A DNA stretch of 8,036 bases from JBGPLH01 sp041486365 [NCBI: Thermodesulfobacteriota bacterium] (GTDB lineage: Bacteria > JAUYMQ01), in assembly GCA_041486365.1 (NCBI GenBank), contig JBGPLH010000141.1, positions 1-8,036 on the forward strand, in the 5' to 3' direction. Of this stretch, positions 2,299-7,875 are shown piece after piece (position 1 is the first letter of the stretch; every line of letters starts with the position of its first letter). The translations under genes and the position numbers were made by a program. Under the pieces are notes generated by a model. It had not been told where the DNA came from. It worked only from the letters and a program-made list of their open reading frames with translations, and made no database searches.

Positions 2299-3099
2299 GT
2301 GAAGATCGTGGTGATCATCAAGCAGGTCCCGGACACGGAGACCAAGATCAAGGTCAAGGCCGACGGCTCCGGCATCGAGACGGACGGGATCAAGTACGTG
2401 GTCAGCCCCTACGACGAGTTCGCCATCGAGGAGGGGCTGCGGCTGAAGGAGAAGCTGGCCGACGACAGCACGGTGACCGTGGTGTCCGTGGGCCCCGAGC
2501 GGACGATCGAGTCGATCCGAACGGCGCTTGCCATGGGCGCGGACGACGCGATCCATGTGAACGACCCGGCCCTGGAGGGAGGCGACAGTCTGGCCACCGC
2601 GCGGGTGATGGCCAAGGCGATCAAGGACCACGGTTTCGACATCGTCTTCGCGGGAAAGCAGGCGATCGATCTCGACCAGGCGCAGGTGGGCCCGGCCGTG
2701 GCGGAGCTTCTCGACATCCCCCAGGTGAACGTCGTGGCGAAGTTCGAGCTCGCGGCGGACAAGACGAAGGCCACGGTGAGCCGGCGCATCGAGGGCGCCG
2801 ATGAACTGATCGAAGTCTCGCTCCCCGCGCTTCTGACCTGTGAGAAGGGGCTCAACGAGCCGCGGTACGCCTCGCTCCCCGGGATCATGAAGGCCAAGAA
2901 GAAGCCCGTGAAGCAGGTCGACCTGGCGGCACTGGGCTTTAACGCGTCCGAGGTGGGCGCGGCCGGGTCCCACGTCAAGATACTGAAGTGGCTCCCGCTC
3001 CCCGAACGGCAGGCCGGGAAGATCCTCAAGGGAATGGAGACGCAGGCGGCGGTGAAGGAGCTGGTGCGGCTGCTTCGCGAGGAAGCCAAGGTCATCTGA
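2299..3099 (+). CDS. etfB: Electron transfer flavoprotein, beta subunit
   Basis: This 266-residue EtfB forms a heterodimer with EtfA, accepts electrons from acyl-CoA dehydrogenases and passes them to ETF-QO. The N-terminus MKIVVIIKQVPDT is characteristic. FAGKQAIDLDQAQVGP (117-132) is the nucleotide-binding segment, which holds AMP in ordinary ETFs. RRIEGADELIEVSLPALLTC (162-181) covers the family signature. NEPRYASLPGIMKAKKKP (186-203) is the recognition loop that docks on the dehydrogenase, with Leu193 at the place of the human anchor Leu195. The start is GTG at 2299 with GGAGG 5 nt upstream. It lies 85 nt after the dehydrogenase and 46 nt before etfA. The AQVGP part of the nucleotide site differs from the mitochondrial sequence as I recall it (see findings), but the operon context supports a housekeeping ETF. 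Confidence 0.95.
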   Translation: MKIVVIIKQVPDTETKIKVKADGSGIETDGIKYVVSPYDEFAIEEGLRLKEKLADDSTVTVVSVGPERTIESIRTALAMGADDAIHVNDPALEGGDSLATARVMAKAIKDHGFDIVFAGKQAIDLDQAQVGPAVAELLDIPQVNVVAKFELAADKTKATVSRRIEGADELIEVSLPALLTCEKGLNEPRYASLPGIMKAKKKPVKQVDLAALGFNASEVGAAGSHVKILKWLPLPERQAGKILKGMETQAAVKELVRLLREEAKVI

Positions 3100-3145: not shown

Positions 3146-4123
3146 ATGGCCAACGAAGTCCTGGTTCTCGCCGAGCAGCGCGCCGGGAACCTGAAGAAGA
3201 TCTCACTGGAGCTGATGGGTATCGGCGCCGAGCTCGCCGCGAAACTCGGCGCGGACCTCACGGCGGTGGTGATCGGCAACGGCGTGGAGGGGCTCGCCAA
3301 GGCGCTCGGCGCGGCGGGCGCCAAGAAGGTCTACGTCGGCGAGACGGGCGAGAAGTACTACAACACCGAGATCTACACGCAGGCCGTTTCCGATCTGATC
3401 AAACAGACGCAGCCGTCGGTGGTCCTGGCGGGCGCCACGGCGCTGGGCAGGGATCTCACGGCCCGCGTCGCGGCCCGGGTGGGCGCGGGGCTGGCCACGG
3501 ACTGCACGGAGCTCCGGATCGAGAACGGCAAGCTCGTGATGCGCCGTCCGGTCTATTCCGGGAAGGCGTACATCGAGCTGGAGTCGACGGCGCCCGTCGC
3601 CATCGCGAGCGTGCGTCCGAACACCTACGGCCCGGCGGCGCAGGATGCCTCCCGCTCGGCCGAGGTGGTTAAGATCGATGTGAAGGCCGTGACGCCGCGC
3701 GCGGTGGTGAAGGAGATCGTGAAGACCGCCGGCGACAAGCCGGACCTCACCGAGGCCGAGATCATCGTCTCCGGCGGGCGCGCGATGAAGGCGGCGGAGA
3801 ACTTCAAGATCCTGCACGAGATGGCGGACGTCATCGGCGCCACGGTGGGCGCCAGCCGCGCGGCGGTCGACTCCGGCTATGCTCCCCACAGCATGCAGGT
3901 GGGCCAGACGGGCAAGGTGGTGAACCCGAAGCTGTACTTCGCGGTGGGCATCTCCGGCGCGATCCAGCACCTGGCCGGGATGCGCACCTCCAAGGTGATC
4001 GTGGCGATCAACAAGGATCCCGACGCCCCGATCTTCCAGAAGGCCGACTACGGGATCGTGGACGACCTGTACACCGTCGTCCCGTTGCTCACGCAGGAGT
4101 TCAAGAAACTGCTCGCGGAGTGA
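3146..4123 (+). CDS. etfA: Electron transfer flavoprotein, alpha subunit
   Basis: This 325-residue EtfA carries the redox-active FAD of the ETF heterodimer. The N-terminal domain (about 1-190) has the ETF alpha/beta fold. The C-terminal FAD domain begins near [12 protein letters not shown] (201-212) and holds the expected contacts: Arg212, Ser237-Arg238 in [12 protein letters not shown], Thr255 in GQTGK and His275 in GAIQHLAG. These keep the same relative spacing as human Arg223, Ser248-Arg249, Thr266 and His286. [16 protein letters not shown] (263-278) running to VIVAIN is the alpha-subunit signature. The ATG follows AGGAG (3133-3137) at 8 nt. It lies 46 nt after etfB and 42 nt before the ETF-QO gene, so subunits and acceptor would be made together. 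No missing residues or breaks are seen. Confidence 0.96.
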
Positions 4124-4165: not shown

Positions 4166-5860
4166 ATGGCGGACGAACGCGAAAGCATGGAAGTCGACGT
4201 CCTGATCGTGGGCGCGGGCCCGTCGGGACTGGCGACCGCCTACCACCTGAAGCAGGCGGTGAAGCGGCACGATGAGGCCGTGGAGCACGCCGGCGTCGGA
4301 ACGAAGATCGGAGATCTCTCGGTTGCCGTCATCGAGAAGGCGAGCGAGGTCGGCGCGCACATGATGTCAGGCGCCGTGATGGACCCTGTCGGGATGAACG
4401 AGCTGATGCCCGACTGGCTCTCGAAGGATCCCCCCCTCGAGAGCGTGGTGAAGAAGGAGGCGGTGTACCATCTGACGGAGAAGGGCGGGATCAAGCTGCC
4501 CGTCATCCCGCCACCGCTCCAGAACCACGGCAATTACATCATCGCCCTCTCGAAGTTCATTCGCTGGCTGGGCCCGATCGTGGAGGCGGAGGGGGTGGAT
4601 CTCTTCTGCGGCTTCCCCGGCGTGGAGGTCCTTTACGAGGGAAACCAGGTGGTGGGCGTCCGCACCGGTGACAAGGGAATCGCCCCCGACGGATCCCGGC
4701 GATCGAACTACGAGCCCGGGATCGATCTCAGGGCGAAGGTCACCGTGTTCGCGGAAGGCGTGCGCGGGAACCTCGCCAAGCCGATGATCCGCAAGCTCGG
4801 CCTCGAGGGGCGGCACCCGATGACCTTCGAGACCGGCGTCAAGGAGATCTTCGAGATGCCGGAAGGGCGCGCGGACCCCGGTTTCGTGATCCACACTTCC
4901 GGTTACCCGGCCCGCAAGGACGCCACGGGCGGATCCTTCATCTACCACCTTCAGAACAACCTGATCGCGGTGGGCTACGTCGTGTACCTCGATTACCGCG
5001 ATCCGTTCCTCGAGCCGCACACCGAGTACCAGAAGTTCAAGAACCACCCGATCGTGAAGAAGATGATCGAGGGCGGGAAGCCCGCGTTTTACGGCGCCAA
5101 GGCCCTCGCGTCGGGCGGCTACTACGCGATGCCTCAGCTCTCCTTCGACGGCGGGATGTTCGTCGGCGAGGACGCCGGGTTCCTGAACAACATGCGCCTC
5201 AAGGGAATTCACCTCGGCATCAAGAGCGGCATGCTCGCGGCCGAGACGATCGTGCAGGCCCTGGAGAAGGGTGACTTCTCCCGCGAGACCCTCAAGTCCT
5301 ATGACGCGCGCGTCGAGCGGTCCTGGGCCGGCAAGGAGATGTACCGCACCCGGAACTTCACCGCCGCGATGTCCAGGGGCTTCCCCTTCCCCGCCGCGAT
5401 CCACCTCGCGGCGCAGGAAGCCACCGGCGGCCGCGGCCTGATCGATCCGCTGCCGGTGCACGGGACGGACGCGCATTCGCTCGCGACCGTGGTCGAGTAC
5501 TACAAGGACCCGAACGCGATGCCCACGCGACCGAAGTACGACGGCAAGTGGGTGCTCGACAAGGTGAGCGACGTCTACATCTCGGGGACGATCCACGAGG
5601 AGAAGCAGCCGGCGCACCTCAAGATCGGCGACCGAAACCTCTGCCAGGAGTGCTGGACGAAGTTCCGCAGCCCCTGTAACCGCTTCTGTCCGGCGGATGT
5701 GTACGAAATGGTGATGGACGAGGGCGCGCAGAAGCGGGACCTTCAGATCCGGTTTTCAAACTGCGTGCACTGCAAGACCTGCGACATCAAGTGCCCCTAC
5801 GACAACATCACCTGGACGCCGCCGGAGGGCGGAGGCGGGCCGAACTACACGTATCAATAG
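4166..5860 (+). CDS. Electron transfer flavoprotein:quinone oxidoreductase (ETF-QO) with an eight-cysteine ferredoxin domain
   Basis: This 564-residue ETF-QO oxidises reduced ETF and reduces membrane quinone; it acts as a monotopic protein on the inner face of the cytoplasmic membrane. The N-terminal FAD domain has VLIVGAGPSGLATAYHL (12-28) and the ribose-binding acid Glu57. A second FAD contact is the region around FVGEDAGFLNNMRLKGIHLG, followed by IKSGMLAAE. The C-terminus is a fused ferredoxin domain ending in PPEGGGGPNY, as in mitochondrial ETF-QO; FixC/FixX systems keep this part as a separate FixX protein. Cys508, 533, 536 and 539 match the four known cluster ligands. Four extra cysteines (493, 496, 504, 543) would suit a second [4Fe-4S] cluster. 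No signal peptide is seen. The ATG at 4166 follows AGGAG (4155-4159) at 6 nt. It is the last gene before the terminator at 5882. Confidence 0.95.
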   Translation: MADERESMEVDVLIVGAGPSGLATAYHLKQAVKRHDEAVEHAGVGTKIGDLSVAVIEKASEVGAHMMSGAVMDPVGMNELMPDWLSKDPPLESVVKKEAVYHLTEKGGIKLPVIPPPLQNHGNYIIALSKFIRWLGPIVEAEGVDLFCGFPGVEVLYEGNQVVGVRTGDKGIAPDGSRRSNYEPGIDLRAKVTVFAEGVRGNLAKPMIRKLGLEGRHPMTFETGVKEIFEMPEGRADPGFVIHTSGYPARKDATGGSFIYHLQNNLIAVGYVVYLDYRDPFLEPHTEYQKFKNHPIVKKMIEGGKPAFYGAKALASGGYYAMPQLSFDGGMFVGEDAGFLNNMRLKGIHLGIKSGMLAAETIVQALEKGDFSRETLKSYDARVERSWAGKEMYRTRNFTAAMSRGFPFPAAIHLAAQEATGGRGLIDPLPVHGTDAHSLATVVEYYKDPNAMPTRPKYDGKWVLDKVSDVYISGTIHEEKQPAHLKIGDRNLCQECWTKFRSPCNRFCPADVYEMVMDEGAQKRDLQIRFSNCVHCKTCDIKCPYDNITWTPPEGGGGPNYTYQ

Positions 5861-6036: not shown

Positions 6037-6957
6037 ATGAAACGCACCGATACCTATTTCATTTCCAATGGCGCCCGCTGCGCCGCCTGGATCTGGGAGC
6101 CCGACGGCCCGGGGCCGCACGCCGCCGTGCTGCTGTGCCACGGCTTCGGAGCGATCAAGGAGGCGCGCCTGGACGCCTACGGTGACCGGTTCGCCCAGGC
6201 GGGCTTCGCCGTGCTGGCCTTCGATTACCGCCACTTCGGCGGGAGCGAGGGGGAGCCGCGGCACTTCGGATCGGTGAGGCGCCAGCTCGAGGACATCGCG
6301 GCCGCGCTCGCCCATCTCCGCGCACAGCCCGAGGTCGATCCGGATCGCGTGGGGCTCTGGGGAACGTCCTTCGGCGGGGCGCACGTGCTCGTCACGGCTT
6401 CGCGCGATCCGCGCGTGGCGGCGGTGATCGCGCAGTGCCCCTTCATGGATGGATTGGACAACCTCGCGAAGACGGAGCCGACCTATGGTCTGCTCCTCCC
6501 GCCCCTGGCGCTCTACGATGTCCTGCGGCGCGCCGTCGGCGCTCAGCCCTTCTACCTTCCGATCGTCGGTCCCCCGGGTTCGATGGCGGCCATGCACGGT
6601 CCCGACGATGAGCCGGGATACCTCGCGCTCATGCCGAAGGCGCCCATTCCCTGGGAGAACCGGATCAACGCGGCCATGGTACTTCGCGCGGGTTTCTACC
6701 GTCCCGTCCGCCACGCGCCGAAAGTGCGCTGTCCGGTCCTCTTCTGCGTGTGTGACGGGGACACGGTCGTGCGACCGGAATCCTCCTTCGAGGCGGCGAG
6801 GCGGGCGCCGCGCGCGGAGGTGCGGCACTATCCGTGCGGGCACTTCGGCATCTATGTCGGGGAGCTGTTCGAGCGGGCCGTGGGCGATCAGATCGACTTC
6901 TTCACCACTCACCTCGCGAAGCCGCCGGAGGTTCGGGCCGCCCGCGCGGCCGGGTGA
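6037..6957 (+). CDS. Alpha/beta hydrolase, serine type, substrate unknown
   Basis: This 306-residue protein is an alpha/beta-hydrolase with all the fold's landmarks in order: the oxyanion-loop motif LLCHGFG (32-38), FDYRHFGGSEG (62-72), the nucleophile elbow GTSFGG (109-114) with Ser111, the likely acid Asp242 in CDGDTVV, and His269 in PCGHFGIY. About 95 residues between strand 6 and the acid (roughly 135-230) form a cap that would set the substrate. No signal peptide or membrane segment is seen, so it is probably a cytoplasmic esterase or related hydrolase. The sequence does not tell the ester, thioester or amide substrate. The ATG at 6037 has GGAGCAGGA (6022-6030) upstream. It follows the operon terminator and leads a three-gene cluster, 33 nt before the PhyH-family gene. 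The fold is certain; the reaction is not. Confidence 0.85.
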   Translation: MKRTDTYFISNGARCAAWIWEPDGPGPHAAVLLCHGFGAIKEARLDAYGDRFAQAGFAVLAFDYRHFGGSEGEPRHFGSVRRQLEDIAAALAHLRAQPEVDPDRVGLWGTSFGGAHVLVTASRDPRVAAVIAQCPFMDGLDNLAKTEPTYGLLLPPLALYDVLRRAVGAQPFYLPIVGPPGSMAAMHGPDDEPGYLALMPKAPIPWENRINAAMVLRAGFYRPVRHAPKVRCPVLFCVCDGDTVVRPESSFEAARRAPRAEVRHYPCGHFGIYVGELFERAVGDQIDFFTTHLAKPPEVRAARAAG

Positions 6958-6990: not shown

Positions 6991-7875
6991 GTGTCCATGC
7001 CGGAGTGCCAGGCCGCGGAGCTCGATCGGAACGTGATCGAGAAGGATATCGCGGCTATTCGTGAGACCGGGTACGTCCTCATCCCGAGCCTGCTCCCCCC
7101 GGAGCTCGTCGCACGGATGCGCGAAGCGCTCCGCGCACACCTGCGGCGGGAGTACCTCGGGCGGAACAACTTCGAGGGGCACGAGACCGAGCGGGTGTAC
7201 TCGCTCGTCGCGGTCCACGAGATCTTCGCCGATCTCGTGGAGCACCCGCGCATCCTGGCGATCTGCGATCGCCTCCTGGAGCCCAACTACCTCCTCACCG
7301 CCTCCCAGGCCATCCACATCCACCCCGGTGAGACGCCCCAACCCTTTCATACGGACGACGCCTTCTATCGCATCCCGCGCCCCCGACACGCGGTGAGCGT
7401 GAGCACGATCTGGGCGATCGACGATTTCACGGAGGAGAACGGCGCCACGCAGATCGTGCCCGGGAGCCACGGGTGGGACGATCCCGAGATCCTGGAGCAG
7501 CTCAAGGGGATCGACTTCAGCACCCAGCCCGGCGGCGAGCCGCGTCCGGCGTCCGCCGACCCGCTGGATGAGAAGATCCGCAACAAGGTTTGCGACGTGA
7601 CGATGCCGTCGGGTTCGGTGATCGTGTTCCTCGGGACGCTGCTCCACCGCGGCGGTGAGAACCGGAGCACGCGGCCGCGCCTGGCGCTCTCCAACCAGTA
7701 CTGCGAGCCCTGGGCGCGACCCCAGGAGAACTACTTCCTGTCGATCCCGAAGGCGCAGGTCCAGGAGATGTCCGAGCGGGTCCAGGCCCTGCTCGGCTAC
7801 AGCGTCCATCCCCCGTTCATGGGGCACGCGAAGGGGTACCATCCTCGACGGTTCCTCGAGGCGGAAGACTCGTGA
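6991..7875 (+). CDS. Phytanoyl-CoA dioxygenase (PhyH) family Fe(II)/2-oxoglutarate oxygenase
   Basis: This 294-residue oxygenase belongs to the PhyH family, whose members use iron, oxygen and 2-oxoglutarate, usually to hydroxylate a carbon. The iron-binding facial triad is visible: His120 and Asp122 in QPFHTDDAF, and His219 in TLLHRGGENRS. Arg230, 11 residues after His219, is the likely 2-oxoglutarate carboxylate ligand, the same spacing as human PHYH His264/Arg275. The strand WAIDDFTEENGATQIVPGSH (141-160) is typical of the family core. Substrate varies greatly in this family (phytanoyl-CoA, ectoine, natural products), so no substrate is assigned. The start is GTG at 6991, with GGAGGAG (6976-6982) 8 nt upstream; ATG at 6997 is a poorer-spaced alternative. 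The next gene starts 14 nt after its stop, so both are almost surely co-transcribed. Confidence 0.88.
   Translation: MSMPECQAAELDRNVIEKDIAAIRETGYVLIPSLLPPELVARMREALRAHLRREYLGRNNFEGHETERVYSLVAVHEIFADLVEHPRILAICDRLLEPNYLLTASQAIHIHPGETPQPFHTDDAFYRIPRPRHAVSVSTIWAIDDFTEENGATQIVPGSHGWDDPEILEQLKGIDFSTQPGGEPRPASADPLDEKIRNKVCDVTMPSGSVIVFLGTLLHRGGENRSTRPRLALSNQYCEPWARPQENYFLSIPKAQVQEMSERVQALLGYSVHPPFMGHAKGYHPRRFLEAEDS

Follow-up and report, generated by a model that had tools for sequence, protein, structure and literature searches.

The question raised by this locus is whether the ETF-quinone oxidoreductase (ETF-QO) encoded in the window, the whole stretch of 8,036 nucleotides that was analysed, carries one iron-sulfur cluster or two. 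ETF-QO accepts electrons one at a time from ETF and, by way of its cluster and its FAD, delivers them to quinone; it has been described as a one-cluster enzyme. The original prediction was that eight cysteines of the C-terminal domain hold two clusters in a crossed pattern, each site taking three ligands from one motif and the fourth from the other. Our analysis, which draws on the directly observed ligand set, homology, distribution and operon, points to what is very probably a respiratory enzyme of fatty-acid oxidation with a full FixX/EtfX-type two-cluster ferredoxin domain.

By translation and Pfam comparison, the gene at 4166-5860 (forward strand) encodes an ETF-QO of 564 aa with its FAD, quinone-binding and C-terminal ferredoxin-like domains all on one chain. 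It matches Fer4_ETF_QO (E 6.9e-38) and ETFQO_UQ-bd (E 3.4e-31), with PF21162 and PF05187 both above cut-off, and FAD-binding families match its N-terminus weakly. An AlphaFold model of the full-length protein (pLDDT 90.9) matches pig ETF-QO (2gmh_A) over 543 residues with rmsd 1.8 and Z 48.4; the C-terminal domain modelled alone gave a pLDDT of 49.0. The nearest relative found, L001, is 81% identical and is titled as a Deltaproteobacteria MAG. Reduction of quinone with electrons from ETF is the putative function of the window enzyme.

Eight of its nine cysteines (148, 493, 496, 504, 508, 533, 536, 539, 543) fall between 493 and 543, and the predicted spacing, C493-x2-C496-x7-C504-x3-C508-P followed by C533-x2-C536-x2-C539-x3-C543-P, matches the translation exactly (5642-5797, from the C493 codon through P544). 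Random placement of nine cysteines put eight of them within 51 residues in 0/200,000 trials. Since the gene is one open frame and all eight cysteines are kept in L001, chance or a frameshift as their source was ruled out.

Alignment with Thermotoga maritima EtfX (7koe_D, E 5.6e-13; EtfX residues are numbered from the start given in that alignment) brings the eight cluster cysteines into register. C493-x2-C496 (5642-5653; this and the following sites are on the forward strand) would provide the first two distal ligands: C493 faces EtfX C29, and C496, owing to the different spacing, misses C33 by one residue. C504 (5675-5677), the proposed third distal ligand, faces C38, and C543-P544 (5792-5797), with the proposed fourth, faces C71. 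The proximal, or standard, ligands are C508-P509 (5687-5692), which faces EtfX C42 as well as the cluster cysteine of the pig enzyme, and C533-x2-C536-x2-C539 (5762-5782), aligned with C61, C64 and C67; in an alignment of 43 proteins (A1), C508 is conserved and the other three are invariant. The Asp that the original prediction gave for the mitochondrial enzyme in place of C543 is indeed seen in the pig sequence, which reads IKDP there.

The clusters of EtfX have been assigned by mutation. According to the matched passages of the work on the T. maritima EtfABCX complex, variants of C29 and C33 concern the distal and variants of C61 and C64 the proximal [4Fe-4S] cluster, and the complex contains 7.1 Fe, EtfX having two [4Fe-4S] clusters (PMC10734219). 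Among four EtfX variants, an intact complex was obtained from C29A alone, with about 40% carrying both clusters and little carrying one, and the authors concluded that stability of the holoenzyme needs both (PMC10734219). A 2018 survey, in the passage concerned, gives FixX two [4Fe-4S] motifs as well (PMC6085437). By homology, then, C508, C533, C536 and C539 would form the standard cluster, and C493, C496 and C504 with C543 a second, distal one; the crossed pattern of two four-ligand sites finds its support in the eight positions aligned with EtfX and in the mutants that assign the EtfX clusters.

Profile searches are less telling. Fer4_7, the two-cluster model of Pfam, matches residues 493-546 of the window protein from profile position 2, as in L001; the match starts at position 10 in 3/3 controls without the N-terminal cysteine triplet (493, 496, 504), and at position 7 both in L002, an eight-Cys protein, and in 4/4 seven-Cys proteins. 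The window scores 20.7 bits as a whole protein and 24.9 bits as the domain alone, below the curated cut-off of 27 bits, and even domains without the triplet receive 18-21 bits; because of these low scores and the varying start positions, the model separates the forms weakly. The cut-off of PF05187 was passed by all ten domains tried, all three cysteine forms included, and PF05187 annotation alone cannot distinguish the cysteine forms of ETF-QO.

To describe the distribution of these forms, 284 loci and the window were reduced to 268 distinct C-termini, 8 of FixX and 260 of ETF-QO, and sorted by motif; L099 (FixX, eight Cys), L203 and L204 were assigned by eye, and L090 and L100 had no usable domain. 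The resulting counts are no abundances, since sampling was by similarity search and phylum with the best-scoring loci first. Among the 260 ETF-QO C-termini the triplet is all or none: 136 have it, 124 lack it, and there is no partial form. Where it is present, residue 543 is Cys in 21 and Asp in 115; the 21 are 19 eight-Cys sequences, the window included, plus L203 and L204, both without C536. None of the 124 triplet-less ETF-QOs has C543, the residue being Asp in 100, Glu in 19, Ala in one, and Gly or Ala in four of a CxxCxxT type. Over the 254 sorted ETF-QOs it is Cys in 19, Asp in 215, Glu in 19 and Ala in one. Sorting by motif makes the triplet constant within groups by construction, so what counts is that partial forms are missing at 51-57% mean pairwise identity.

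The guess that other bacterial ETF-QOs share the eight cysteines was right, with 18 distinct sequences besides the window (L001, L002, L093, L094, L101, L106, L108, L110-L117 and L197-L199). The expectation that the four additional cysteines occur together held for three of them and failed for C543, which is Asp in most triplet proteins; with Cys there in 21/136 only, the set is better described as a strict triplet and a variable fourth (Cys or Asp). Residue 507 also follows the triplet: it is Phe in 134/134 sorted proteins that carry the three cysteines and Tyr in 112/120 that lack them, and in these 120 the place of C504 is taken by Glu (69), Ala (42) or a few others. In 4/124 triplet-less ETF-QOs there is one Cys upstream, but its offset (counted by eye) does not coincide with any position of the triplet. 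The standard C533/C536/C539 is departed from in 6/260 cases: L203 and L204, without C536, and four with Thr for C539.

The forms are unevenly spread over the samples. Around the acidobacterial genome G003 (95/247 searched genomes match), 65 loci were read: 56 seven-Cys, 3 eight-Cys, 2 odd, 2 CxxCxxT and 2 FixX. The seven-Cys share of ETF-QO loci was 56/63 there and 35/35 around the Thermochlorobacter-titled G004 (35 loci read; 54/296 searched genomes match). The 70 loci read around the proteobacterial G006 (102/150 searched genomes match) comprised 67 four-Cys, one seven-Cys (L265) and 2 FixX, so that the distal site is absent from 67/68 ETF-QOs. Eighty loci chosen by likeness to the window gave 2 eight-Cys, 18 seven-Cys and 60 four-Cys.

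Several unusual loci were encountered in the survey. L203 and L204 keep, in their last 110 residues, all four distal cysteines and have Pro for C536 (CLHPKICEFACP), the reverse of the usual loss. L089, L095, L207 and L208 represent a second, CxxCxxT type of ETF-QO without distal cysteines, and G001, the genome of L001, carries L089 beside its eight-Cys enzyme. In one MAG (G002; L085 and L088) an eight-Cys ETF-QO is accompanied by a seven-Cys domain, which lies on a different contig in a frame of only 110 aa. Divergent proteobacterial ETF-QOs (L245-L253) have CLHCKCCDIKDP, with an additional Cys inside the standard motif.

The aspartate at 543 bears on an alternative view of the distal site, in which it binds another metal centre ([3Fe-4S] or zinc) or is often empty, the standard cluster alone being catalytic. 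In the 115/136 triplet relatives with Asp, three Cys and the Asp are kept, and as they are the majority, the triplet can persist without a fourth Cys. Seven-iron ferredoxins are a precedent for such a 3 Cys + Asp site, where one would expect either a [3Fe-4S] cluster or a [4Fe-4S] cluster with Asp as a ligand. What the distal cluster does in EtfX is itself called unexplained in PMC10765413. The window protein, however, has all four Cys in the order of EtfX, which binds two [4Fe-4S] clusters, and we consider a different or missing metal centre improbable here.

The genomic context speaks for fatty-acid oxidation. Upstream of the ETF-QO gene, all on the forward strand, lie a TetR regulator matching FadR of fatty-acid metabolism (382-1011; NF053878, 204.4 bits against a cut-off of 200), an acyl-CoA dehydrogenase (1068-2213; PF00441, PF02771, PF02770), which is the likely electron donor to EtfAB, and the ETF subunits EtfB (2299-3099; PF01012) and EtfA (3146-4123; PF01012, PF00766). 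The gaps between successive genes from the dehydrogenase to ETF-QO are 85, 46 and 42 bases, and ETF-QO is encoded together with ETF and an acyl-CoA dehydrogenase; L001 repeats the order dehydrogenase-EtfB-EtfA-ETF-QO. An alpha/beta hydrolase (6037-6957) and a phytanoyl-CoA dioxygenase, PhyH (6991-7875), follow downstream in the same orientation. When the operon was compared with plasmids by megablast, there were short matches alone, none covering 80% of the query.

The same genes allow one to weigh a further alternative, a fused FixCX-like subunit that together with EtfAB oxidises NADH and reduces ferredoxin and quinone at once. The eight-Cys domain is as in EtfX, the top three matches of EtfA among solved structures come from bifurcating enzymes, and the EtfB stretch DLDQAQVGP has seven of the nine residues of the b-FAD motif DGDTAQVGP. 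Of the other motifs of bifurcating (Group 2) ETFs, EtfB lacks both the NAD motif RxFxG and the SPT motif, and EtfA reads RPVYSG, not RPxFGG. In L001 the b-FAD stretch is broken (DQDNSQVPS). For EtfB, the top four matches among solved structures are the ETFs of Methylophilus, human (twice) and Paracoccus, which we take not to be bifurcating. In place of the small FixABCX-type subunit, which is separate, stands beside FixC and has C-x-E-C-G-T-C, the window has a domain that is fused to the FAD domain and reads CVHCKTC. With a FadR-like regulator and an acyl-CoA dehydrogenase also in the operon, this alternative is very unlikely, and a bifurcating complex was rejected as the leading reading on the EtfA and EtfB motifs. 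Operon and motifs together point to ordinary, non-bifurcating fatty-acid oxidation.

The history of the distal site was followed in a quick tree of 103 rows and a careful one of 73, which left out the long branches L111, L195, L204 and L209 (a FixCX row) and in which the seven-Cys rows were thinned from 62 to 35. The 20 four-Cys rows form one clade in both (100/100 in the careful tree), as do the 11 eight-Cys rows of the careful tree (95/93; 98% of 200 bootstrap trees); in the quick tree L111, a long branch, was placed away from the other eight-Cys rows, so that two changes were required for this group. As the states form few clades, the joint occurrence of the cysteines rests on few evolutionary events. 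The triplet is common to part of FixX (L097, L098, L099 and L209), so that most simply it would be ancestral, and its absence in Proteobacteria a loss. The AU test does not reject rooting on the four-Cys branch, however (p 0.43), and the proposed proteobacterial loss therefore relies on FixX homology, not on the tree; as a counterpoint, the other half of the eight FixX read (L096, L210, L283, L284) are also without the triplet. On the careful tree, C543 in the clade of the window may even be a regain from Asp.

The quinone type offers one idea about such a loss. UbiG (TIGR01983) scored above cut-off in 33/34 four-Cys genomes, taken from the sample around G006 and from G007 (the genome of L070), in 0/18 eight-Cys genomes (two of them of the odd L203/L204 type), in 2/25 seven-Cys genomes (G003, G720) and in 0/3 of the CxxCxxT type. 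These counts would fit the idea that ubiquinone users have lost the distal site. The pattern comes close to a single event, since the 34 genomes are all proteobacterial as far as annotated, and a strict quinone rule is contradicted by G720, which has UbiG although its L265 is the only seven-Cys ETF-QO among the 68 proteobacterial ones read. MenB (TIGR01929) was above cut-off in 5/80 genomes, too few to inform the quinone type. The mitochondrial enzyme, too, is presumably without the triplet. We regard it as an even chance that the usual non-proteobacterial ETF-QO is a two-cluster enzyme, its distal site made of four Cys or of three Cys and Asp, and that the single-cluster mitochondrial form has lost that site.

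For the occupancy and role of the clusters in the window enzyme, we infer the following scheme. The proximal [4Fe-4S] cluster (C508, C533, C536, C539) would relay electrons from EtfAB to the FAD of the enzyme and on to quinone, unchanged, while C493, C496, C504 and C543 would hold a distal [4Fe-4S] cluster, by homology close to the first. Most likely the distal cluster mainly stabilises the domain; that it also gives electrons from ETF an additional place to enter or to wait is a tentative proposal that we rate somewhat below even. In EtfX it is the proximal cluster that accepts the electron of the Etf flavin; why the distal cluster is needed goes unexplained in the passages concerned, where the authors note that an extended state might make cluster I accessible (PMC10765413). 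The earlier claim that a second cluster alters the path of electrons from ETF to quinone thus found no support.

Among the matches listed in open-licence PMC papers, none described a bacterial ETF-QO with eight cysteines or two clusters. A single matching paper names both ETF-QO and FixX, and its passages treat them as separate systems; one passage sketches the domains of the mitochondrial enzyme, with an arrangement other than that of the window. The enzyme and the domain type are each known, and as far as searched no description covers the two combined with a complete distal site. The original prediction named no biochemical description, and for a fused ETF-QO none was found in these searches; for the homologous two-cluster domain, EtfX has been described. 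If true, a widespread two-cluster form would revise the picture of electron entry into the quinone pool in many bacteria, and the natural variants (four Cys, three Cys and Asp, or none) offer a way to probe what EtfX and FixX use their distal cluster for.

Pig ETF-QO (2gmh), the structure of which holds one cluster, shares with the window enzyme the whole fold, the FAD and quinone domains and the standard cluster ligands, but lacks cysteines corresponding to 493, 496 and 504 and carries Asp in place of C543. In the Acidobacteriota and Bacteroidota samples, the ETF-QOs with seven cysteines have the same fused architecture and the three N-terminal cysteines, with Asp at 543 where the window has Cys. 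Mycobacterial EtfD is a heterodisulfide-reductase-like membrane protein, unlike the window ETF-QO, and to our knowledge is not of the same sequence family. It also links ETF to quinone, and it has, according to the pertinent passages, two cubane clusters with crossed ligands, C311 with C412/C415/C418 and C301/C304/C307 with C422 (PMC13083937). EtfX and FixX have the eight cysteines in the same order as the window ETF-QO. EtfX is a separate small subunit of a bifurcating complex with the spacing C-x3-C-x4-C, whereas the window domain is part of one chain, has C-x2-C-x7-C and is served by an EtfAB that looks non-bifurcating.
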